Shown: piece by piece, positions 4,367-64,000 of the stretch
How positions within the stretch are numbered: position 1 is the stretch's first letter
Layout: each line of letters begins with the position of its first letter
From: Bradyrhizobium sp. CCBAU 53340
GTDB taxonomy: Bacteria; Pseudomonadota; Alphaproteobacteria; Rhizobiales; Xanthobacteraceae
Length of the DNA: 64,000 nucleotides
NCBI RefSeq assembly: GCF_015291645.1
Contig: NZ_CP030055.1
Span: 6,448,001-6,512,000 of the forward strand
Reading direction: 5' to 3'
Position numbers and translations under genes: made by a program
Notes under the pieces: generated by a model
The model's database searches: none
Told to the model about the DNA's origin: nothing
What the model saw: only the letters and a program-made list of their open reading frames with translations

Positions 4367-6022
4367 TCAGAAAATCTTGACCGCGCTCTCCAGCGTCTTC
4401 CAGACGCCCCAGGCCAGGGGAACGCCAACGAAAGCCCAGAACAGCGCCGCCTTGGCATCCAAGCCGCCCCTGCCGATGCCGAACGAACCGTGCTGGATTG
4501 ACGCTTCGCTCTTCGCGCTGGCCGCCTGCAAGCGGGCAACCTCTTCCTGGCTCATGTTCCACTTGGGATCGACGGGCTTGATCAGATAATTGCAAATCAA
4601 GCCCGCGATCAGCATGGCGCAGAGGATGTACATCGTCGTGTTGTAGAGCTGGTCACGCGGCACACCGGCGGCGAGTTGGAACTCGCGGATATAGTTGACC
4701 ACGACAGGACCGATAATGCCCGCGGTCGACCAGGCCGTCAGCAGCCGGCCATGGATGGCGCCGACGAACTGGGTTCCGAACATGTCCGCAAGATAGGCCG
4801 GCACCGTCGCGAAGCCGCCGCCATACATCGACAGGATGATGCCGAAGCCAAGCACGAAGAGCAGCTTCGAGCCCATCGCCGCGAAAGTGGGCGCGAGCGC
4901 GTACAGCACGATGCCGAGCAGGAAGAACGTATAGTAGGTGTTCTTGCGGCCGATGTGATCCGACAACGACGCCCAGAAGAACCGGCCGCCGATATTGAAC
5001 AGCGACAGCAGTCCGGCGAAGCCCGCGGCAATGCCTGCGATGACCGTCTTTTGCTCAACCGAGAGCTGGCCGAAAGCCAATGCGGGTTGACCGATCAGCT
5101 TGCCGGCAAAGATTTCCTGAAGCATCGGCGAGGCCATGCCGATCACGCCGATGCCTGCCGAGACGTTCAAGCAGAGCACCCACCAGATCAGCCAGAATTG
5201 CGGCGTCTTGTGCGCATTGTTGAGATGCACGTGATGCTCGGTGATCATTGACTTCTTTTCGCTCGGCGGCGTCCAGCCCTCGGGCTGCCAGCCCACCGGT
5301 ATGACGCGATAGGCGAATGCGCCGATCGTCATGAAGACGAAATAGATGACGCCCATGACGACGAAGGTTTCCCAGACGCCCACCGAGGTCGGCGTCTTGA
5401 AGTAATTGATCAACAGGTTTGCCAGCGGCGCACCAATCATAGCGCCGCCGCCGAAGCCCATGATGGCCATGCCGGTCGCCATGCCGCGGCGATCGGGAAA
5501 CCATTTGATGAGCGTCGACACCGGAGAGATGTAACCCAGGCCGAGACCGACGCCGCCAATCACGCCGCAGCCCAGCCACATGATCCAGAGCTGGTGCACA
5601 TACACACCGAAAGCGCCGATCAGAAGACCGCCGCCCCAGCACAGCGCGGCGACGACGCCCGCCTTGCGCGGGCCCACACGCTCAAGCCAGCCGCCCCAGA
5701 TCGCGGCAGAGACGCCGAGCAGGACGAAGAACAGCGTGAACATCCACCCGAGGCTCGCGACCTTCCAGTCACAGGTCGTGGTGAAGAGTTCCTGGAACAG
5801 CGACATGTCCGGGCATGCCTTGCTCTGCGTGATTCCGATCGCGCGCGACAACGGCAGCCAGAACACCGAGAAGCCATAGGCCATGCCGATGCACAAATGG
5901 ATGCAGAGCGCCGCCGGGGGTACCAGCCAGCGATTGAAGCCGGGCTTGGCGATCGTGTGCTCACGATCGAGAATTCCGGCGCCAGCACCCGAAATGCTTC
6001 CAGTGCCTTCGATTGTCGTCAT
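4367..6022 (-). CDS. oxlT: MFS transporter, oxalate/formate antiporter (OFA) family
   Basis: This roughly 551-residue protein belongs to the inner-membrane major facilitator superfamily. The N-terminus contains NRWLVPPAALCIHLCIGMAYG followed by a polar GITQSKACPDMS loop, typical of OFA-type carriers, which exchange oxalate for formate. About twelve hydrophobic segments are visible, with loop motifs such as KWFPDRRGMATG and ASLSDHIGRKNT. The chosen ATG at 6022 is preceded by GGGGAGGA at good spacing; an upstream in-frame GTG at 6043 is less likely. Its place beside formate dehydrogenase suggests oxalate import, decarboxylation elsewhere and formate oxidation, but no oxalyl-CoA decarboxylase or transferase is in view. 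Substrate direction is therefore inference. Confidence 0.85.
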   Translation of the reverse strand: MTTIEGTGSISGAGAGILDREHTIAKPGFNRWLVPPAALCIHLCIGMAYGFSVFWLPLSRAIGITQSKACPDMSLFQELFTTTCDWKVASLGWMFTLFFVLLGVSAAIWGGWLERVGPRKAGVVAALCWGGGLLIGAFGVYVHQLWIMWLGCGVIGGVGLGLGYISPVSTLIKWFPDRRGMATGMAIMGFGGGAMIGAPLANLLINYFKTPTSVGVWETFVVMGVIYFVFMTIGAFAYRVIPVGWQPEGWTPPSEKKSMITEHHVHLNNAHKTPQFWLIWWVLCLNVSAGIGVIGMASPMLQEIFAGKLIGQPALAFGQLSVEQKTVIAGIAAGFAGLLSLFNIGGRFFWASLSDHIGRKNTYYTFFLLGIVLYALAPTFAAMGSKLLFVLGFGIILSMYGGGFATVPAYLADMFGTQFVGAIHGRLLTAWSTAGIIGPVVVNYIREFQLAAGVPRDQLYNTTMYILCAMLIAGLICNYLIKPVDPKWNMSQEEVARLQAASAKSEASIQHGSFGIGRGGLDAKAALFWAFVGVPLAWGVWKTLESAVKIF

Positions 6023-6127
6023 GCATTCCTCCCCTGCCGCCACCCTTCTGAGCAGCCTGCCCTAACCATCCTGTTCCTCAGCCGTTGCAGTGCAGCCAAT
6101 TGTCCCCGCTGCTCCGCACAATCATCC

Positions 6128-6155
6128 GACACGCGTCAGGATCGTCACGCGTGTC
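6128..6155. repeat. 9-bp inverted repeat upstream of the oxalate/formate transporter
   Basis: GACACGCGT (6128-6136) and ACGCGTGTC (6147-6155) form perfect arms around a 10-base loop, about 105 bp upstream of the transporter start in the 6023-6339 gap. It could be an operator or an RNA hairpin. No coding sequence is seen in the rest of this 317-bp gap. Confidence 0.4.
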
Positions 6156-55566: not shown

Positions 55567-56406
55567 TTATGATCCGTCGACGCCGAGCAGTTTGGCCGGC
55601 GTTCGCCACAAGAGGCGATGCTGATCGCCCGGATCCGGAAACAGCTGTGCCAGCACCGCCAGCAGCGGCCCGTAGTCGAGCCGTTCAGGGGCGCGCAGAA
55701 ACGGATAGTCCGAACCCCAGACGCAGCGATCGAGCGTGAAAGCCTCGACCAGTGCCGCGATGAACGGCCAGGTGTCTTCGTAGGGGTGCGGCTGCTGCGA
55801 AAACTTGTAGCAGCCGGAGAGTTTGACATGCGCGTCGCGCTCGCGGCCGATCGCCAGCAGCGCCTGGAAGGCCTTGCCTGCCACGCCATGCGCCACCGAC
55901 GGCCGCCCGCAATGGTCGAACACCAGGCGCACCGGCGACTGCTCGATCAACGGCAGCAGATCGAGCAATTGATCGTTCTCGACCTGGATCTGGAGAAACA
56001 GGCCGAGGCTCGTCAGCTTCTCCAGCAGTGGCGCTGTGTGGCGATAATGGTCGGCGCCGTGGAACGGCACGTTGAAGGCGACGCCGATCACGCCGGCGGC
56101 TTTCAATCGTTCGAGCTCGGCGATGTCGACGTCGTTCTCGACCACGGCGACGCCCCTGAAGCGGCCGCCACCCTGCCTCAACGTATCGAGCAAGATGCGG
56201 CTATCGCTGCCATAGCCGGTGTTGGTGGCGACCACGAGCGCATGGCTGATATCGAAGACGTCGAACACGCGGATCAGCTGCGCGGCCGTCGCGATTTCCT
56301 GCCCGCTCGGCCGATATGGCGTGTCGGCACCATAGGGAAAACGGACGGGATCGAGGGCGTGGATGTGGCAGTCGATCCTGGGGCCGGCCGGCAAGGTCAT
56401 GCGCAA
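55567..56406 (-). CDS. Cytoplasmic amidohydrolase of the PDC-lactonase-like branch
   Basis: The 279-residue TIM-barrel hydrolase lacks a signal peptide. Motifs: PRIDCHIHALDPVRFPYG, ALVVATNTGYGSDSRIL, VRLVFDHCGRPSV, AHVKLSGCYKFS and CVWGSDYPFLRAPE. It is of the same broad family as the two Tat-exported proteins but not a close paralogue. It sits between the ABC receptor and the AroE-like gene, with short gaps (26 and 17 bp), so one operon is likely. Predicted activity is lactone or amide hydrolysis of a cyclic acid. Confidence 0.87.
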   Translation of the reverse strand: MRMTLPAGPRIDCHIHALDPVRFPYGADTPYRPSGQEIATAAQLIRVFDVFDISHALVVATNTGYGSDSRILLDTLRQGGGRFRGVAVVENDVDIAELERLKAAGVIGVAFNVPFHGADHYRHTAPLLEKLTSLGLFLQIQVENDQLLDLLPLIEQSPVRLVFDHCGRPSVAHGVAGKAFQALLAIGRERDAHVKLSGCYKFSQQPHPYEDTWPFIAALVEAFTLDRCVWGSDYPFLRAPERLDYGPLLAVLAQLFPDPGDQHRLLWRTPAKLLGVDGS

Positions 56407-56423
56407 AGCTCTCCCCGCGCGGT

Positions 56424-57266
56424 TCAGAACGTGGCCTCGATGGCCTTGATCAGCTCGAGCGTCACATCAGGCATCACACCGAACCAGGCTTTGAAGGCGA
56501 GCCGCGCCTGGTTGAGCAAGAGGCCGAGCCCGTTCACGGTGACGCAGCCGCGCGCGCGGGCCTCGGCCAGGAACGGCGTTTCCAGCGGCGTGTAGATCAG
56601 ATCGGCGGTCAGTGTCGTGGACTTCAGGCGCGACAGGTCGATCTCGAGCGCGTCCTTGCCGACCATGCCGCGGTCTGTGCAATTGACGAGCAGCGCGACA
56701 TCGCCGAGCGCGGCGGCGCGATCATCCCACGCAACGGTGCTGACGGCAGAGCCGAATTCGTTTGCGATCGCCTGCGCCTTCTGCGCAGTGCGGTTGGCGA
56801 TGCGGATCTCCCGCGCACCGTTCTCGAGCAGGGCCACGACCACCGCGCGCGAGGCGCCGCCCGCCCCCAGCAGCAGGATCGGACCGGCATCGCCGCGCCA
56901 ATCGGCCTTGGCGTCGCGCAGGCTCTGCACGAAGCCGTTACCGTCATTGTTGAAGCCGGACAGCGTGCCGTCCTGTTCGACCACGATGGTGTTGACGGCG
57001 CCGATGCGCTTTGCGGTCTCGTTGACGCGGGCAAGCATCGGCATCGCCGTCTGCTTGTGCGGCATGGTGACGTTGCAGCCGCGGAACCCGAGCGCGACGA
57101 GGCCGCGCAGCGCATCCTCAAGCCGTTCCGGCTGCACCGCGAGCGGCACATAGGAACCTCGGATGCCGTGAGCCTTCAGCCAGTAATTATGAATGACCGG
57201 CGAGCGCGAATGCGCCACCGGCATGCCAATGACCCCCGCCAGCCCAAAACCATCCGCCTGCGACAT
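56424..57266 (-). CDS. Shikimate dehydrogenase family protein (AroE-like)
   Basis: This NADP-linked oxidoreductase of about 280 residues has AGVIGMPVAHSRSPVIHNYWLKAHG (SxS substrate loop), RGCNVTMPHKQTAMPML with the catalytic Lys, and FNNDGNGFV with the catalytic Asp. A nucleotide motif GAGGASRAVVVALLENGA and ANRTAQKA follow. ATG 57266 (MSQADG) is favoured. Genomic context with an ABC receptor and an amidohydrolase suggests catabolism of shikimate/quinate-type acids rather than aromatic biosynthesis. A palindrome with half-site AGATGT lies 54 bp upstream. Confidence 0.9.
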   Translation of the reverse strand: MSQADGFGLAGVIGMPVAHSRSPVIHNYWLKAHGIRGSYVPLAVQPERLEDALRGLVALGFRGCNVTMPHKQTAMPMLARVNETAKRIGAVNTIVVEQDGTLSGFNNDGNGFVQSLRDAKADWRGDAGPILLLGAGGASRAVVVALLENGAREIRIANRTAQKAQAIANEFGSAVSTVAWDDRAAALGDVALLVNCTDRGMVGKDALEIDLSRLKSTTLTADLIYTPLETPFLAEARARGCVTVNGLGLLLNQARLAFKAWFGVMPDVTLELIKAIEATF

Positions 57267-57319
57267 GCTGCGTTCCCGTCCCCGGCCACGCCTTCGGCGC
57301 GCGACCATGTTATTTGGTC

Positions 57320-57336
57320 AGATGTACAAGACATCT
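57320..57336. promoter_or_regulatory. Inverted repeat upstream of the aroE-like operon
   Basis: AGATGT-ACAAG-ACATCT is a perfect dyad with 6-bp arms, 54 bp upstream of the aroE-like start. The style resembles FadR-type GntR operators. No GntR regulator is encoded in the window. Confidence 0.5.
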
Positions 57337-57405
57337 AGAGGGAATGGCTAGCGAGTGCAATCTGAATCTCGCAAAGGCGAGGCGCCCGGGGGCGGGGCGA
57401 TGGCG

Positions 57406-59493
57406 TCATTTCGACGCCAACGCGGCCACCGGCTTCCAGGCGGCATCGGGCGCGGAGGCGGCGAGCTGCCGACAGCGCTCACGCATCAGCTCGGCCGGGC
57501 GATCCTGGCCGCGCTGCTTCAACACGGCATCGAAATCGGCAAGCGCTGCGGCAAACCCGCGCGCGCGATAATTGGCGAGACCGCGCTCGTAATCCTCGAC
57601 CCAGCCGGCCGCGACCGCGCCGTCACCCACGATTCCCAACAGCTCATAGACCGAGAGCCCCTCCTCCCGTCCATAAACGGCGATGCTGTCGATCTCGCGC
57701 GTGACGATGGTGCCACGCGCCAGGCGTTCGGTCGTCTCACCGATCAGGATTTGCGTGCCAAAGGTTTTGTTGGCGCCTTCGAGCCGGCTCGCGACGTTCA
57801 CGGCGTCGCCGATCACGGTGTAGTTCAATCGCAGCTCCGAACCGATATTGCCGACCAGCATGCGTCCTGAATTGATGCCGATCCTGATCTGGAGCGGCTG
57901 GCCGAGATCGTCGGTGAGCCCCGACTGCTCGATCGCCCTGCGGCAGGCGAGCGCAGCGCGGCAGCAGCGCACCGCGTGATCGGCCTGCGGCTGCGGCGCG
58001 CCCCAGAACGCCATCACGGCATCGCCGATGAACTTGTCGATGGTGCCGCCATTGGCAACGATAATCTCCGAGGTGACATCGAGATAGCGCGACAGCAGCG
58101 GCACCACGCGATCGCCGAGCCGCTCGGACAGCCCGGTGAAGCCGGCGATGTCGATGAACATCACGCTGAGCTCCTGGATGCTCCCGCCGGGCCTAGCCTC
58201 CACGCCCTGACGAAGAAGTGCGCGGACGAGATCGGCCGGAATGAACTTGCGAAAGGCCGAGAGTCCGGCCGCCATCTCGGCGATCGCGCCCGACAGGCTC
58301 GCGATTTCCTTGAGCCGCGACGGATGGCGGCGGACCTGCTCCAGTGCGAACGCTTCGACATGGCGAAGCTCGCCGACGACGCGCGACAGCGGCGCGGCGA
58401 TGACCGAACGCGCCAGCACTGCCGACGCCAGCGCCGCGAGCACCGCGCCGATGGCAAGGCCAATGATCAGGTGCCGCAGCGTGGACTCGACCGGCCCGAG
58501 AAACTCGGCCTCCGGGATCACCGTTGCCAGCGACCAGCCCGGAAACGGCAGCGGCGTCAGCGCGACTTCATAGGCCGCGCCTTTCGCAGTGAGCCGGCTT
58601 CGCCAGGCCTCCTTGCGGCCGGCCTCTCCTGCTTTCGCGAGTGCCGTCCGCGCCAGCGGCAACAACGCGGTATCGCCCTTGGCCGAATGCAGCTCGTCGG
58701 CGTCCTTGTCCGGCGCAGCGACGAGCTCGCCGCTGTCGTCGATGATGAAAGCCGTTCCCGTGCGCCCGACTTCGAGCTGTGACAGGAAGCGCGCAAGCCT
58801 TGTATATTCGATGATGACGGCGAGAACACCCTGTCGCTCCTGGTAGACGTCGATCGGTCCCGCAAAGGCGATCGACGGCCGCTGGCCGGTCGGATGGTCC
58901 ACGACGCGGAACCATTGCGGGTCATCCGCGGCCAGCCCGGCCTTGAACCAGGCCTGATCGGCGACGCGGAATCCGGTCGGCTCGAAGCGACGATTGGCAA
59001 ATTCGATATCGCCGGGCACCACGTCATATTCATCCACGCGACGCTCGCCCGGATGATCGGTCAGCGAAATCTCCATCATCTCCAGGCGCCGGTCTCCGAG
59101 CTTGTGCGCGGCGAAGAACGAGCCATCAGGCCAGCCGAAGGCAACCCATGAAATCGTCGTCTGCGATTGCAACTGCGACAGGAACACGAACTCGCGCTTG
59201 TCGGCTTCGCGGGTATCGAGCACGTTCTGGAGGAACAGCGTGCGAATCGCGGTGTGCGCGGCGCGCGCCTCGTCGACGATGGCCGCGACCTCCTTGCGCA
59301 CCGCCGCCACGATCTGCTCGTTGATGGTGGAGGCGAGCTGCCGGCTTGTCGCCTCAGCCGTTCGCCACCACAACAGGCTGGAGAGGGCTGCCGTCAGCAG
59401 GATGGCCGCCAGGACGAGTGCAGACACGGCAAGGCGGATACTGACGGTCATTCGTGCGATCGTCTGAAGCCGCTGCTCGGAAAAGTCCATCAT
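57406..59493 (-). CDS. Membrane-bound sensor adenylate/guanylate cyclase
   Basis: This protein of about 695 residues has an N-terminal membrane helix (IRLAVSALVLAAILLTAALSSLLWW). A large periplasmic Cache-like sensor follows (WVAFGWPDGSFFAAHKLGDRRLEM, FEPTGFRVADQAWFKAGLAADDPQWF, VLAVIIEYTRLARFLSQLEVG, GTAFIIDDSGELVAAP). A second membrane helix (LIIGLAIGAVLAALASAVLARSVI) leads to a HAMP-like linker and the cyclase domain. It has SVMFIDIAGFTGLSERLGD, IDKFIGDAVMAFWGAP and YTVIGDAVNVASRLEGANKTFG. The metal Asp residues and the AVNxASRLE block are present, so activity is expected. It is transcribed alone. Confidence 0.9.
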   Translation of the reverse strand: MMDFSEQRLQTIARMTVSIRLAVSALVLAAILLTAALSSLLWWRTAEATSRQLASTINEQIVAAVRKEVAAIVDEARAAHTAIRTLFLQNVLDTREADKREFVFLSQLQSQTTISWVAFGWPDGSFFAAHKLGDRRLEMMEISLTDHPGERRVDEYDVVPGDIEFANRRFEPTGFRVADQAWFKAGLAADDPQWFRVVDHPTGQRPSIAFAGPIDVYQERQGVLAVIIEYTRLARFLSQLEVGRTGTAFIIDDSGELVAAPDKDADELHSAKGDTALLPLARTALAKAGEAGRKEAWRSRLTAKGAAYEVALTPLPFPGWSLATVIPEAEFLGPVESTLRHLIIGLAIGAVLAALASAVLARSVIAAPLSRVVGELRHVEAFALEQVRRHPSRLKEIASLSGAIAEMAAGLSAFRKFIPADLVRALLRQGVEARPGGSIQELSVMFIDIAGFTGLSERLGDRVVPLLSRYLDVTSEIIVANGGTIDKFIGDAVMAFWGAPQPQADHAVRCCRAALACRRAIEQSGLTDDLGQPLQIRIGINSGRMLVGNIGSELRLNYTVIGDAVNVASRLEGANKTFGTQILIGETTERLARGTIVTREIDSIAVYGREEGLSVYELLGIVGDGAVAAGWVEDYERGLANYRARGFAAALADFDAVLKQRGQDRPAELMRERCRQLAASAPDAAWKPVAALASK

Positions 59494-59651
59494 CGCAGTT
59501 TCCGCCTGTGGCCGCCTGATAGCTTTACGCCCCGCGCGCCCGTTCGTTACCGCTCGCAAACCTCCGCCGATAAATCCAATGCTCGCCGGCTAGCGTGTCG
59601 ATAGAGCCAAGGCATTGGATTTAGGCGGACGCTTGCCCGCTAATCCTGCTT

Positions 59652-59674
59652 CAAGCGCACCACAAATGCGCTTG
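59652..59674. repeat. 8-bp inverted repeat upstream of the bufferin operon
   Basis: CAAGCGCA (59652-59659) and TGCGCTTG (59667-59674) are perfect arms with a 7-base loop. It lies 37 bp upstream of the candidate -35 element, so it may be an operator or a separate hairpin. Confidence 0.45.
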
Positions 59675-59710
59675 ACCAATAGGTCTCACAGACTCGTGAG
59701 CGGTCCGGCG

Positions 59711-59736
59711 GTAACGGGGCCTCCGTACCGAGCGAA
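59711..59736 (+). promoter_or_regulatory. Candidate SigF-type ECF promoter of the bufferin operon
   Basis: GTAACG (59711-59716) and CGAA (59733-59736) are separated by exactly 16 bases. This matches, with one difference at the last -35 base, the GTAACC-N16-CGAA consensus I recall for Caulobacter SigF, which controls metal-stress genes including bufferin operons. The predicted start of transcription is near 59742, leaving a leader of about 48 bases before bufA. Confidence 0.65.
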
Positions 59737-59789
59737 CCAGACCATGCGCTTTCGCCTGCCAGGCGATGTACCCCAAAAGGAGAATCCTG

Positions 59790-60095
59790 ATGTCCGTCAA
59801 ACTTGCCGTCACCACGCTCGCTCTCGCCGGCGCCATGTCGACCGCGCTTGCGACCCTCGCCGCCGCCGCCCCGCTGACCAAGGCCGAAGCCGATGCCGCC
59901 GTGGCCGCCAAGAAAGAGAAGTGTTTTGGCGTCGCCCTGAAGGGCCAGAACGATTGCGCCGCCGGGCCAGGCACGACCTGCCAGGGCACCTCGACCGCCG
60001 ACTTCCAGGGTAACGCCTGGAAATTCGTCCAAGGCGGCACCTGCACCAGCATCGAGTTGCCGGGCGGCAAGAAGGGCTCGCTGAAGCCGGTCTGA
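59790..60095 (+). CDS. bufA: Bufferin-type RiPP metallophore precursor (DUF2282 family)
   Basis: This 101-residue precursor has a Sec signal peptide at residues 1-26 ([21 protein letters not shown]...AAAA). The mature part has four conserved cysteines, 45, 56, 64 and 85, in [27 protein letters not shown] and [11 protein letters not shown]. This is the DUF2282/BufA pattern. In bufferins of Caulobacter, cysteines are converted by the partner MNIO enzyme into copper-binding thiooxazole groups before export. ATG 59790 has AAGGAG at ideal spacing; the longer frame from 59766 is not supported. It is first of four genes with bufB, bufC and bufD, 48 bp before bufB. Confidence 0.92.
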
Positions 60096-60143
60096 CGCGG
60101 TCGAACCGACCTTCACCCTACACCAAGGAAACGGAGCAGCATC

Positions 60144-61052
60144 ATGATCACGGCCACCAAGCCAGCCCCCGTGCCGCTCCGCTTCTCGCCGCCAATCGGC
60201 GGTCTCGCCGGGACCAGCTTCAAGCACGAGCACCTCGCGACCATCCTCGCCAATGGTCCGCAACGCGGCTTCTTCGAGGTTCATGCCGAGAACTACATGG
60301 GCGCGGGCGGACCGCCGCACCGCGCGATAGAGGCGATCCGCCGCGACCATCCGCTCTCGCTGCACGGCGTCTGCATGTCGATCGGCGGACCGCAGCCGCT
60401 GGACAAGGCACATCTGGCTCGCTTCCGCGGCCTGGTGGCGCGCTATCAGCCGGCCATGGTGTCCGAGCATCTCGCTTGGTCGACGCATGAGACCAGCTTC
60501 TTCAACGACCTGCTGCCGCTGCCTTATACCGAGGCGACGCTGCGCCAGGTCTGCGATCACATCGACCAGATGCAGGAGGCGATCAGGCGTCCCATCCTGC
60601 TGGAGAACCCGTCGACCTATCTTGCTTTCGCCGAGACGACGATGAGCGAGACCGATTTCATCCGCAGCGTCGCCGCGCGCACCGGATGCGGCTTGCTGCT
60701 CGATATCAACAATGTGTTCGTCTCCGCTACCAATCATGGATTTTCTGCGCTCGACTATCTCGCCGATTTTCCACTCTCGCGCGTTGGCGAAATTCACCTT
60801 GCAGGGCACGACGAGCAGGCGGACGACGATGGCGAGCCGCTCCTGATCGACAGCCATGACGGCCCGGTCGCAGACGCCGTGTGGAAGCTCTACGAGATCG
60901 TGATCGCACGCTGTGGCGCAGTGCCGACGCTGATCGAATGGGACTCCAACATTCCGGACTGGCCGGTCTTGCAAGCAGAAGCCGCCGCCGCACAGGCGAT
61001 CCTCGATCGCTGCGAAATCGCCAGGACCGCGGAGGGCCGTCATGCTGCCTGA
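60144..61052 (+). CDS. bufB: Multinuclear non-heme iron-dependent oxidative enzyme (MNIO, DUF692), bufferin maturase
   Basis: This 302-residue TIM-barrel enzyme of the MNIO family would modify cysteines of BufA. Conserved metal-ligand and signature regions are FFEVHAENYMG (about 43-53), LSLHGVCMSIGG, MVSEHLAWS, ILLENPSTYL, LLLDINNVFVSATNHG, EIHLAGHDEQ, LLIDSHDGPV and IEWDSNIPDW. These His/Glu/Asp/Asn positions bind the iron atoms in MbnB and related MNIOs. RBS AAGGAAACGGAG precedes the ATG. Its end overlaps bufC by 11 bases. Confidence 0.93.
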   Translation: MITATKPAPVPLRFSPPIGGLAGTSFKHEHLATILANGPQRGFFEVHAENYMGAGGPPHRAIEAIRRDHPLSLHGVCMSIGGPQPLDKAHLARFRGLVARYQPAMVSEHLAWSTHETSFFNDLLPLPYTEATLRQVCDHIDQMQEAIRRPILLENPSTYLAFAETTMSETDFIRSVAARTGCGLLLDINNVFVSATNHGFSALDYLADFPLSRVGEIHLAGHDEQADDDGEPLLIDSHDGPVADAVWKLYEIVIARCGAVPTLIEWDSNIPDWPVLQAEAAAAQAILDRCEIARTAEGRHAA

Positions 61053-61821
61053 ACCAGTCGTCTCCTTTGCCGCGGCCTTCGCGCCGGCGCTACTGGATCC
61101 CACGCGCGCCACGCCGCCGGCCGTGACCGGCCCGAACGGCCGGGCCGCCGGAAAGCGCTACGATGTCTATCGCAATAACGTCACGGTGAGCCTGATCGAC
61201 GCGCTCGCCGCAATCTATCCGGCGGTGCAGCGCATCACCGGCACGGACTTCTTCCGCGCCATGGCGCGTTTCCATGTTCGCGAGAGCCCGCCGACCTCGC
61301 CGCTGCTGTTCGAATATGGCCGCGCCTTTCCGGACTTCATCGCGCGGTACGAGCACGCGCAGGCCATGCCCTGGCTCGCCGATGTCGCCCGCATCGAGCG
61401 GGCCTGGCTCGATGCCTACCACGCGCACGATGCGGCGCCGCTGGCGCCGGTTCAGCTCGCGGCAATCGCGCCGGAGCGACTGGCCGATCTGATTTTCAAA
61501 CCGCACCCCGCAGCGCAGATCGTGCGCTCGGAATTTTCCGCGGTGACGATCTTTGCCGCCAACCGCGACAGCGCGCCCATGAGCCGCATTGACGCCTCGA
61601 AGGCGGAAGATGCGCTGATCACGCGGCCGGGATTCGATGTCATCGTGCGACACTTGCCTCCCGGCGGCGCGGTCTTCGCGATCTGCCTGGTGCAAGGCCG
61701 GCCGCTCGGCGAGGCCGCTGCATCCGCGCTGGCGGCATCGCCCGATTTCGACATTGCAGCCAACATTGCCGGCCTGACCGAGGCCGGCGCATTCACCTCG
61801 ATTGCCTTCGGAGACGCATGA
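61042..61821 (+). CDS. bufC: Bufferin maturation partner protein (DUF2063 / HvfC-BufC family)
   Basis: This 259-residue protein has an N-terminal DUF2063 domain: FAAAFAPALLDPTRATPPAV, RYDVYRNNVTVSLIDALAAIYPAVQRITGTDFFRAMARFHVRESPPTSPLLFEYGRAFPDFIARYEHAQAMPWLADVARIERAWLDAYHA. The C-terminal half is a second, winged-helix-like domain. In MNIO systems the partner protein presents the precursor to the oxidase. The start lies within the end of bufB, and its stop overlaps the bufD ATG (ATGATGA), showing tight coupling. Confidence 0.92.
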   Translation: MLPEPVVSFAAAFAPALLDPTRATPPAVTGPNGRAAGKRYDVYRNNVTVSLIDALAAIYPAVQRITGTDFFRAMARFHVRESPPTSPLLFEYGRAFPDFIARYEHAQAMPWLADVARIERAWLDAYHAHDAAPLAPVQLAAIAPERLADLIFKPHPAAQIVRSEFSAVTIFAANRDSAPMSRIDASKAEDALITRPGFDVIVRHLPPGGAVFAICLVQGRPLGEAAASALAASPDFDIAANIAGLTEAGAFTSIAFGDA

Positions 61822-62330
61822 TGATCACGGACCAACGCATGTCGGCAGTTGGAAGCCTGCCGCCGCTCGGGTTGCTCGTCGATAGGGCCAATCATCTGGT
61901 GCAGACGATCGCCACCCCCTCACTGGTCCAGCTCGTGCTGCGGCTGGCGCTGGCCGTGCCGTTCTGGCGCTCCGGCATCCTGAAATGGGGCGGCTTCCTC
62001 AAGTTGAACGACACCGCGGTGACGCTGTTCACCGACGAATTCATGCTGCACCTACCTGGAGGCCCCTATCACTATCCTGCACCCGCAGCGATGGCCTTTC
62101 TCTCCGGATGCGGCGAGATCGCGTTTCCGATCCTGCTCGTCCTCGGCCTCGGCACGCGGTTCGCTGCGCTGGGCCTTCTGTTCATGACGGTGATCGTCGA
62201 GCTTACGGTGCCCGACGGCTGGCCGTTGCATATCACCTGGGCGGCGATGGCCCTGGGCATCATGGCCTATGGTCCGGGGCGCATCGCGCTGGACCATTTG
62301 ATCGGCCGGTCGCTCTCGCCCGAGCAATAG
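61818..62330 (+). CDS. bufD: DoxX-family membrane protein of the bufferin operon
   Basis: This 170-residue membrane protein has four hydrophobic segments: LVQLVLRLALAVPFWRSGILKWGGFLKL, APAAMAFLSGCGEIAFPILLVLGLGTR, FAALGLLFMTVIVELTV and WPLHITWAAMALGIMAYGPG. RSGILKW and the GCGEI motif are typical of DoxX. DoxX proteins often accompany DUF2282-DUF692-DUF2063 genes; their role is not established, with redox or export support suggested. It ends the operon five bases before the convergent SDR gene. Confidence 0.9.
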   Translation: MMITDQRMSAVGSLPPLGLLVDRANHLVQTIATPSLVQLVLRLALAVPFWRSGILKWGGFLKLNDTAVTLFTDEFMLHLPGGPYHYPAPAAMAFLSGCGEIAFPILLVLGLGTRFAALGLLFMTVIVELTVPDGWPLHITWAAMALGIMAYGPGRIALDHLIGRSLSPEQ

Positions 62331-62335
62331 GCGCC

Positions 62336-63181
62336 TCACATCCCGCTCAGCCCACTATCGACCGCCAGCGTCTGCGCGGTGACGTAGACGCTTTCGTCCG
62401 ACAGGAAGAAGAGCACCGCATAGCCGATCTCCCAGGCGGTGGCTTGACGGCCGAAGGGGATGTGGCCCTTGCCGCGGCTGGGGCGGCCGGCGCCGGCTTC
62501 GCGGCCGTTGGGGGTGTCGACGAGGCCGGGATAGACGAGGTTGGCGCGGATGCCGCGGCGTGCGCCGAGATGGGCGATGTTGCGCATCAGGCCGCCAAGC
62601 GCGGCTTTGGAGGAATCATACACCGCCATCTGCGATCCCGCTTTCAGGGCAGCGATGGAGGAGATGAAGACAATGGAGCCACCGTTGTCGAAACCCGGCA
62701 TCGCGGCGCGGCAGCACAGCATGGGACCGCGGACATTGACGTCGTAGACCCCATTCCATTCCTCTGGACTGACATTGTCGAGCCCGACCTTGCCGAAGGT
62801 GCCGATGTTCAGCACCATGCCGTCGAGCCCGCCCATGGCGCGATGCGCTTCCTCGATCATGCGCTGAACGTCGGCCTCTGACGTGACGTCGGCCGCAATG
62901 GCAAAGCCCTCACCGCCTTCGTCGGTGATGCGCTTCACCGTCTGCTGCGCGGCGCCGTGGTTGAGATCGGCCACCGCGACCTTCGCGCCCTCGCGTGCGC
63001 ACAAGATGCTCATGGCACGGCCGTTGCCGATCGGATCGGTCGCGGCGTCGAACACGCGCTGGCCGCCGCCGACGATCAGGACGCGGCGTCCCTTCAAGCG
63101 TCCCCTGCCCGCCGCTTCGCCAAGCGATTCCGCACTCGGCGGGCGAACGTACCGTTCCGGCTTGCCATCGGCTTCCGTCAT
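62336..63181 (-). CDS. Short-chain dehydrogenase/reductase
   Basis: This 281-residue SDR has a cofactor motif RRVLIVGGGQRVFDAATDPIGNGRAMS with an unusual insertion in the TGxxxGIG loop. It continues with KVAVADLNHGAA (NAD preference likely), ADVTSEADVQ and LNIGTFG in place of NNAG. The catalytic Ser and YxxxK follow in VFISSIAALKAG and VYDSSKAALGGLMRN. The C-terminus VYVTAQTLAVDSGLSGM is classical. It lies next to a CMD-family protein and a probable TetR gene on the same strand, probably one operon. Substrate unknown. Confidence 0.88.
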   Translation of the reverse strand: MTEADGKPERYVRPPSAESLGEAAGRGRLKGRRVLIVGGGQRVFDAATDPIGNGRAMSILCAREGAKVAVADLNHGAAQQTVKRITDEGGEGFAIAADVTSEADVQRMIEEAHRAMGGLDGMVLNIGTFGKVGLDNVSPEEWNGVYDVNVRGPMLCCRAAMPGFDNGGSIVFISSIAALKAGSQMAVYDSSKAALGGLMRNIAHLGARRGIRANLVYPGLVDTPNGREAGAGRPSRGKGHIPFGRQATAWEIGYAVLFFLSDESVYVTAQTLAVDSGLSGM

Positions 63182-63190
63182 CGCGCCGCC

Positions 63191-63742
63191 CTACGTCTTG
63201 CCGCTGTCATAGACCTTCATGCCGGCCGCAGGATCGAGATCGGTCTCGGTCGCCTCGGTGACGCGCGCCATCATCATGTAGAATCCGAGCGCGACGATGG
63301 ATTCCACGATCTCCTGATCGCTGAAATGTTTTCGCGCGGCAGTGAAGGTCGGCTCGGGCACGCGGACGCTCTCGACCACCTCGCGGCCGAACTTCAGCAG
63401 CGCGCGCTCGGCTTCGTTCAGCGCCGCGGCATCGTAGTCACGGCGCTCGACCGCATCGACCTGGGCTTGCGTGCAGCCGACGCCGAGTGCGATCGGCACG
63501 TGCTGGCGCCACTCATAGGCGCCGCCTTCGAGCTGCGCGGCCTGGAGGATCAGGAGCTCGCGGTTGACGGCCGAGAGCTTCTGCTTGTGCAGGATCGAAT
63601 TGCCGAGCCGCATCGCCGGGATCATGTTGGCCTCGGCATGGGCCATCATGCGGAAGATGTTGAGCTTGACCGGCATGCGGTCGAACGAGGCGCGGATGTC
63701 GCCGCTCGTCGTCTCCGGATCAATCAGGGGCAGCCTTGCCAT
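63191..63742 (-). CDS. Carboxymuconolactone decarboxylase (CMD/AhpD-like) family protein
   Basis: The 183-residue all-helical protein has the family core MRLGNSILHKQKLSAVNRELLILQAAQLEGGAYEWRQHVPIALGVG. It continues with AQVDAVERRDYDAAALNEAERALLKFGREVVESVRVP and FSDQEIVESIVALGFYMMMARV. The AhpD CxxC peroxidatic pair is absent (EGGAYEW at that place), which argues against peroxidase activity and for a lyase or structural role. It is followed ten bases later by the SDR, and its start overlaps the end of the probable TetR gene. Confidence 0.9.
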   Translation of the reverse strand: MARLPLIDPETTSGDIRASFDRMPVKLNIFRMMAHAEANMIPAMRLGNSILHKQKLSAVNRELLILQAAQLEGGAYEWRQHVPIALGVGCTQAQVDAVERRDYDAAALNEAERALLKFGREVVESVRVPEPTFTAARKHFSDQEIVESIVALGFYMMMARVTEATETDLDPAAGMKVYDSGKT

Positions 63743-64000
63743 GGTTCACTCCCTTGGTTTTTCTCTTCTTGTTGCCGTGGCTCCTGCCATCCGCCGCAAT
63801 CAGCGACAGGAAGAAGGCGAGATAACGGTCAATCGCCTCGATCACCCTCGGCCGCGGCGACGGCGCCGCGCCCATCACGTAATGCTCGAGCCTGATATAG
63901 ATGAGCCCGGCCGCGAACAGCCGCGCGGTCTCGCGCGGATCGGGCGTCGAGACCAGGCCGGCCAGCGCAAAGCCGCGAAAATAATCCGTCATCAGGCGCT
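63720..64000 (-). CDS. Probable TetR-family regulator, C-terminal part only
   Basis: About 90 C-terminal residues are visible; the gene continues past the right edge. DYFRGFALAGLVSTPDPRETARLFAAGLIYIRLEHYVMG and AIDRYLAFFLSLIAADG have the helical pattern of a TetR ligand domain, followed by a basic tail (RSHGNKKRKTKGVNHGKAAPD). No DNA-binding domain is in view, so the family call rests on helix pattern and context. Its stop lies inside the start of the CMD gene. Confidence 0.55.
   Translation of the reverse strand, partial: RLMTDYFRGFALAGLVSTPDPRETARLFAAGLIYIRLEHYVMGAAPSPRPRVIEAIDRYLAFFLSLIAADGRSHGNKKRKTKGVNHGKAAPD

Follow-up and report, generated by a model that had tools for sequence, protein, structure and literature searches.

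Which system is encoded by the four close or overlapping genes at 59790-62330 of a 64,000-nucleotide stretch of Bradyrhizobium sp. CCBAU 53340 DNA (contig NZ_CP030055.1, positions 6,448,001 to 6,512,000; here denoted the window), and what controls it? A sequence-only reading had proposed that these genes form a bufferin operon (bufABCD), producing a ribosomal peptide whose cysteines are converted to copper-binding thiooxazoles. Our analysis of genes, domains, promoter conservation and genomic linkage revealed a bufferin gene set that is preceded by an ECF16/sigmaF-type promoter and is genomically linked to a divergent gene for a nucleotide cyclase, two elements that the earlier reading had missed (Table 1). 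We consider it quite likely that all three belong together, as a Buf1 operon with an ECF16-type promoter served in trans and a co-inherited cyclase partner.

Gene content and spread of the bufABCD operon

All four open reading frames lie where the sequence-only reading had placed them. Profile searches, read at the curated cut-offs of Pfam and at the NCBIfam cut-offs, gave Pfam matches above cut-off for every product, which upholds their assignment to a DUF2282 precursor, an MNIO enzyme, a DUF2063 partner and a DoxX protein (Table 1). The bufA start is preceded by AAGGAG, 7 nt before the ATG, bufB and bufC overlap by 11 nt and bufC and bufD by ATGA; given these overlaps and the good ribosome-binding site of bufA, the four same-strand genes are read as one operon. 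It is flanked by minus-strand genes, upstream by that for the Cache-domain nucleotide cyclase and downstream by one for a short-chain dehydrogenase. The 8.7 Mb genome holds one MNIO gene and one DUF2282 gene.

Table 1. Coordinates of the bufferin genes, the linked cyclase gene and the promoter motifs in the window
Feature	Position	Strand	Evidence or placement
Class III nucleotide cyclase of the membrane, probably adenylate type	57406-59493	-	Guanylate_cyc 1.5e-23; dCache_1 5.8e-17
ECF16/EcfF-like motif GTAACG-N15-CGTA	59526-59550	-	Ends 32 nt before cyclase start
ECF16/sigmaF-type promoter GTAACG-N16-CGAA of bufABCD	59711-59736	+	Ends 53 nt before bufA start codon
bufA, Buf1/DUF2282 precursor, 101 aa	59790-60095	+	PF10048 DUF2282 3.8e-22
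bufB, MNIO bufferin maturase, 302 aa	60144-61052	+	Pfam MbnB_TglH_ChrH 3.7e-106; NF050167 385 bits
bufC, DUF2063 partner protein, 259 aa	61042-61821	+	Pfam DUF2063 7.1e-25
bufD, DoxX-family membrane protein, 170 aa	61818-62330	+	Pfam DoxX 1.5e-16

BufB exceeds the cut-off (310 bits) of NCBIfam model NF050167, named 'MNIO family bufferin maturase', and its PDB relatives include 3bww and MbnB; among the matches listed, the named relatives nearest by BufB are Bradyrhizobium (91%). BufA reached 23.8 bits against the Buf2 model, whose cut-off is 60. With BufB above the bufferin-maturase cut-off and the precursor short of the Buf2 model, the system falls into the Buf1 (DUF2282) type. BufC and BufD scored below the NCBIfam cut-offs for HvfC and HvfX, respectively, the HvfC result leaving a RiPP (ribosomally synthesised and post-translationally modified peptide) recognition element in BufC no more than putative. 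The gene order agrees, as the sequence-only reading had argued, with that of Buf1 clusters in PMC12452194, of Caulobacter (PMC3511200) and of Sinorhizobium meliloti (PMC6180224); the domain content, the four cysteines of the precursor and its signal-like N-terminus likewise fit the Buf1 bufferins of PMC12452194.

Across 80 related loci, the best 80 of 480 bufB relatives, bufA is present in 79, bufC in 80 and bufD in 77, and all four genes occur together in 76; the sole locus without bufA is cut at the bufB start. Since the grouping is kept across these loci, it is not due to chance. Of 195 genomes sampled from the genus, 136 have a BufB above the NF050167 cut-off (138 at E 0.001). In the order the figure is 27 of 40 genomes, five of the 40 having been picked for carrying the cyclase, and 349 plasmid records matched at E 1e-20. 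These frequencies mark the operon itself as ordinary, and the literature presents bufferins as a copper strategy of wide occurrence (PMC12452194). By its genes and domains, bufABCD is thus a Buf1-type bufferin operon, of a known and common kind.

According to the same source, core bufferin clusters comprise the precursor, MNIO, DUF2063 and DoxX genes, Buf1 clusters also hold sigma/anti-sigma genes, and other conserved genes are rare. Individual loci depart from the usual layout. At L087 (Bradyrhizobium erythrophlei GAS478) a DDE transposase gene (Pfam; 5007-6155) sits between bufB and bufC. In G009, a genus genome without a cyclase match, the Buf1 set is rearranged (L184, 3413-7350): bufB and bufC share one strand, and bufA and a DoxX-like gene lie on the other.

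The precursor core

By eye, the BufA N-terminus is hydrophobic, alanine-rich and signal-like. The four cysteines, at positions 45, 56, 64 and 85 as the sequence-only reading had placed them, are invariant in 79/79 aligned precursors (all with cores of the same length and with the window among them; L085, whose core is shorter, was excluded). Invariant residues make up 18 of the 41 core positions, namely the four cysteines and 14 others, and the median identity to the window precursor is 0.91 in the 41-residue core versus 0.60 in the preceding 44 residues. The two central cysteines, and the residues around them, hardly vary among BufA relatives. In Buf1 precursors it is the central two cysteines that are modified, the outer two being bridged by a disulphide (PMC12452194). 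By analogy, Cys56 and Cys64 are predicted to be modified and Cys45 and Cys85 to be joined by a disulphide, which refines the earlier proposal of cysteine conversion.

The promoter of bufABCD

The coding part of the operon has the extent given by the sequence-only reading; the functional unit begins further upstream. Of 80 loci, the window and 79 relatives, 72 have the motif GTAACN-N15/16-CGAA at 55-95 nt ahead of bufA; the loci share ancestry and hence do not represent 72 independent events. Across 720 permuted element pairs, counting the real one, the median is 0 loci; pairs clear of the motif reached at most 3, and frames overlapping it up to 30. Because the sites in the per-position promoter table were picked by the motif letters, the invariance of those letters there follows from the selection and carries no weight as evidence. 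The motif corresponds to the sites of Caulobacter SigF, GTAACC-N16-CGAA (PMC3511200), and to the RpoE7 promoter of the S. meliloti operon, GTAACA-N16-CGAA (PMC6180224). We located the published S. meliloti promoter stretch 5' of bufA in locus L090, where sigma and NrsF homologues are adjacent.

In the region 59400-62500 a sigma-70 promoter scan gave no match, and a terminator scan gave 2 terminator-like sites versus 1.9 expected. A hairpin between bufA and bufB was considered and rejected (z 0.20, not exceeding shuffles), and nothing matched in an Rfam search of 56000-64000.

Candidate sigma factors

The genome carries two pairs of extracytoplasmic function (ECF) sigma factor and NrsF anti-sigma genes, both away from the window, and the window with 4 kb beyond it holds no homologue of either pair. 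In flanks of up to 4 kb, a sigma or NrsF match was present at 33 of the 80 loci (at L038 over 34 residues only) and at 0/28 Bradyrhizobium/Afipia loci (L010-L036, L087). One pair, about 1 Mb from the operon, resembles EcfF/OsrA of B. japonicum. Its anti-sigma factor has 213 aa beginning Met-Met, Cys130 and Cys180 as only cysteines and 12 methionines; by its published description, OsrA likewise contains twelve methionines and no cysteines other than Cys129 and Cys179 (PMC3420878).

GTAACA-N15-CGAA lies upstream of the EcfF-like sigma gene. The motif family also precedes plausible starts of two MsrA genes, MsrB, a DsbD/CcdA-like gene and EgtB in this genome; genes of comparable function are listed in the EcfF regulon of B. 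japonicum, namely those for three methionine sulphoxide reductases and for a protein with a putative role in cytochrome c biogenesis (PMC3420878, Table 3). In front of the EgtB (ergothioneine) gene (L138, 173-1417, minus strand), GTAACG-N16-CGAA stands 59 nt from the start.

NrsF was detected in 183/183 high-quality genus genomes, with or without BufB (15 candidates scored per genome). Twenty BufB-positive genomes have a single NrsF match, ten with Buf1-type and ten with Buf2-type precursors, and all ten of the Buf1 genomes carry the bufA promoter. The NrsF of the second pair is without the second conserved cysteine. These sequence features make the EcfF/OsrA-type pair, some 1 Mb distant and with both stress-sensing cysteines retained in its anti-sigma factor, the most likely source of the acting sigma factor.

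The second pair lies in a set of thioredoxin, DsbD-like, ECF and NrsF genes (L005, 3210-5684) behind a perfect GTAACC-N16-CGAA. A methionine-rich OsrA loop as a general bufferin copper sensor was rejected: 30 aligned NrsF proteins encoded beside non-Bradyrhizobium buf operons have no methionine cluster. The second cysteine is present in all 30 and the first is missing in 6.

A divergent Cache-domain cyclase

The product of the divergent gene has a dCache domain between two transmembrane-like segments (from residues 23 and 342), followed by a class III domain, and its best PDB match is CyaB 3r5g. D448, K487, D491, T559, N566 and R570 are invariant in 12 aligned cyclases; we take D448 and D491 to be the metal aspartates, K487 and T559 to act on the base, and N566 and R570 to be the class III catalytic asparagine and arginine. 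By sequence the protein is thus a class III nucleotide cyclase, probably of adenylate type.

In the genus survey (195 genomes; E 1e-100, five best candidates scored per genome), cyclase and BufB occur together in 124 genomes, the cyclase only in 0, BufB only in 14 and neither in 57 (Fisher 2.6e-36, uncorrected for phylogeny). In 13 BufB-negative genomes up to 50 cyclase candidates were scored each and none matched. Among the 124 cyclase genomes, 117 have BufB on the same contig at a distance of 0.5-12.7 kb, divergently in 114, and 7 have no same-contig BufB among the matches listed. Cyclases beside sampled Buf2 operons share 54-58% identity with the window cyclase. The genomic linkage of cyclase and BufB is therefore strong.

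Across the order (297 genomes; E 1e-90, three candidates scored each) the cyclase was found in 12 genomes, five of them outside the genus. BufB is present in 5/5 of these versus 22/35 others, a difference that is weak by itself. In L200 (5077-10749) and L201 (1407-7524), from two other families, bufA, bufB, bufC, bufD, a gene similar to type II NADH dehydrogenase (NDH-2) and the cyclase gene follow one another on one strand; dCache was recognised in the L200 cyclase only. Within 8-14 kb around the cyclase, the other three extra-genus genomes showed no precursor or MNIO.

PMC5413113 describes a Legionella pneumophila H4 cluster of GIG homologues, NADH dehydrogenase and adenylate cyclase genes on different strands. 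In PMC12452194 the word 'cyclase' occurs only in the reference list, and PMC8692599 and PMC10413115 mention other cyclases. We found no published claim of a cyclase as a recurrent or functional bufferin partner, subscription papers and supplements lying outside the search. We read the cyclase as a co-inherited bufferin partner, which probably senses a periplasmic signal.

Motifs at cyclase genes and Buf2 operons

Twenty-two Bradyrhizobium Buf1 loci, among them the window, were examined for the motif before the cyclase gene, and 21 have it (L020 and L030, with a partial cyclase match, L021 and L023, with a weak one, and L032, L033 and L087, with none, were left out). The sequence around it is also conserved, a permuted pair other than a shift reaching 6/22. 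In 18 further loci, with starts estimated from alignment, the motif occurs in 2, L180 and L182 of one genome. ECF16 co-regulation of all linked cyclases is consequently not supported; 21/22 in Buf1 loci but 2/18 elsewhere supports co-regulation in the window's own lineage only.

The single Buf2 precursor scored reached 82 bits with the BufA2 model (cut-off 60). Tandem precursors are present in 19 of 30 Buf2 loci, counted in the stretches fetched. GTAACN-N14/16-CGTA stands 80-130 nt upstream of the bufB-proximal precursor in 29/30 loci; permuted pairs reached at most 7 loci, in an overlapping frame, and the sole miss is L129, with one precursor visible. The first tandem precursor has the motif in 7/7 loci with at least 190 nt of upstream sequence. 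According to PMC12452194, sigma/anti-sigma genes occur in Buf1 and not in Buf2 clusters; the motif nevertheless suggests that Buf2 in Bradyrhizobium is under an ECF16 factor encoded elsewhere. The promoter evidence as a whole would place both bufferin families of the genus under the command of one such distant sigma factor.

At two Buf2 loci further genes stand between bufA2 and the cyclase gene: a DsbH-type thioredoxin-like gene at L181 (3383-6801), and DoxX and DsbD/CcdA-like genes at L182 (4454-6356). Several units at these loci bear an EcfF-like motif of their own.

Proposed mechanism and alternatives

Thiooxazole formation, copper tolerance and sigma-factor control have been established by others in relatives; that all this applies to the present strain, together with the identity of the acting sigma factor and the role of the cyclase, is what we infer. 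In the mechanism we propose, stress on the periplasmic side of the OsrA-like anti-sigma factor would free the ECF16 sigma factor, which would read the promoter at 59711-59736 and start bufABCD. BufA would be made with a Sec signal, and the iron oxidase BufB, aided by BufC, would turn Cys56 and Cys64 into thiooxazoles in the cytoplasm. The modified peptide would then be exported, its Cys45 and Cys85 would pair, and it would bind excess copper in the periplasm, with BufD as a probable accessory membrane protein. The cyclase probably senses a periplasmic signal and makes a cyclic nucleotide when bufferin is needed. If it is functional, signalling is a further output of these bufferin loci, which in root-nodule bacteria would link the buffering of copper with cyclic nucleotides as signals. 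That bufferin loci of Bradyrhizobium and some other families have a dedicated membrane sensor cyclase coupling the periplasmic copper/redox state to such signalling, and form one core stress circuit with the EcfF-type Buf1 and Buf2 promoters in place of self-contained detoxification clusters, is a broader proposal towards which we lean only slightly.

Several results weigh against the reading of a Buf1 operon served in trans and joined by a cyclase partner. No NCBIfam model named BufA, BufC or BufD above cut-off. The strict motif is absent before bufA in 8 of the 80 loci, L037 and L043 having CGTA for CGAA, and L053, L064, L065, L067, L083 and L085 making up the rest. Genome-wide enrichment of the motif was rejected, matches being fewer than in backward controls (22 versus 57, and for variants 18 versus 133 and 16 versus 90); we inspected 21/22 (N17-CGAA), 16/16 (N16-CGAA) and 6/18 (CGTA pattern) of the matches and assigned them to starts by eye, many being intragenic or without a clear start. 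The genome has another ECF/NrsF pair, whose gene set follows a perfect motif. The genus co-occurrence counts ignore phylogeny and rest on few candidates scored per genome, and of 13 genomes with Buf2 loci one shows the motif before the cyclase gene. Finally, RpoE7 and its buf target in S. meliloti are not induced by H2O2, cadmium or chromate (PMC6180224).

Data from relatives on the trigger diverge: copper is supported in Caulobacter (PMC8224329) and peroxide in B. japonicum (PMC3420878), and no induction by peroxide, cadmium or chromate was seen in S. meliloti (PMC6180224). The operon could chiefly serve an oxidative or thiol-stress response, in which EcfF/OsrA senses periplasmic oxidants, bufferin limits Fenton chemistry and copper is one trigger among others. 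The two MsrA, MsrB, DsbD/CcdA-like and EgtB genes sharing the motif family fit this idea, as does the H2O2 induction of B. japonicum EcfF, which requires OsrA Cys179 (PMC3420878); the homologue here has Cys130, Cys180 and 12 methionines. Caulobacter SigF targets, however, rise with chromium and cadmium but at most twofold with peroxides, paraquat and diamide (PMC3511200), they rise with copper in all conditions tested (PMC8224329), and Table 3 of PMC3420878 names no MNIO gene among the EcfF targets. We regard this possibility as a tentative one, worth keeping in mind yet less probable than not. That the second ECF/NrsF pair (G000 C1, near 2.51 Mb), and not the EcfF/OsrA-like one, drives bufA appears unlikely: in spite of the perfect GTAACC-N16-CGAA upstream of its set and the thiol-redox genes within it, its NrsF is without the second, signal-sensing cysteine and scores 86 versus 195 bits, and the bufA promoter is kept in the ten Buf1 genomes with a single NrsF match.

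The cyclase could also have no bufferin role and owe its place to common ancestry, as a passive neighbour. BufB-positive genomes without a cyclase match number 14, the motif is mostly missing before Buf2-linked cyclases, and in three genomes of another family the cyclase lies off the BufB contig. Passive descent accords poorly with the absence of the cyclase from all 57 BufB-negative genus genomes and with the variety of layouts near BufB: divergent within 1 kb (window type), divergent at 2-13 kb (sampled Buf2), upstream on the same strand (L183), and downstream on that strand with an NDH-2 gene in between (L200, L201). The Legionella cluster, alike by its description in PMC5413113, also lists adenylate cyclase and NADH dehydrogenase. 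On balance a passive role is rather doubtful. Distinctly unlikely is a different fate of the precursor, by other chemistry or with another metal such as cadmium, chromium, gold or silver. Related operons do respond to chromium and cadmium (PMC3511200) and to gold and silver (as stated in PMC8224329), and Cys-flanking residues vary among DUF2282 peptides (PMC13097082); yet BufB exceeds the bufferin-maturase cut-off, and the central two cysteines with their surroundings are near-invariant among relatives.

Comparison with known systems

The closest described operon is SMb20530-SMb20527 of S. meliloti, which goes up with RpoE7 by a log fold change of 4.7-6.8 (PMC6180224). Homologues of the four window proteins occur in the same order in L090, with 67, 70, 59 and 63% identity; there, rpoE7-ecfR7 lie divergently beside the operon, whereas the window operon has a distant sigma factor and an adjoining cyclase. 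Caulobacter CC3254-CC3257 have the same DUF2282-DUF692-DUF2063-DoxX order and a sigmaF-type promoter, but sigF (CC3253) and nrsF (CC3252) adjoin the operon (PMC3511200), and a second operon, CC2907-2905, is present where the genome of the window has one MNIO. Copper induces the Caulobacter SigF regulon, buf genes included, under every condition examined, and a mutant in sigF is sensitive to copper (PMC8224329).

The Legionella pneumophila H4 cluster resembles the window, by description alone, in bringing bufferin-type (GIG) homologues near NADH dehydrogenase and adenylate cyclase genes, and differs in its use of different strands and in an acetoacetate decarboxylase gene (PMC5413113). The captophorins fontiphorin and oxazolin likewise carry MNIO-made thiooxazoles and have a copper role, with EGKCG repeats in contrast to the DUF2282 core of the window precursor (PMC13097082). 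The Buf2 (BufA2) operons of the genus have in common with the window an MNIO gene, a DUF2063-like gene (a weak match to bufC), a linked Cache-domain cyclase and an EcfF-type motif; they differ in their ACKGQ-repeat precursors, one or two in tandem, and in a -10 element CGTA instead of CGAA.

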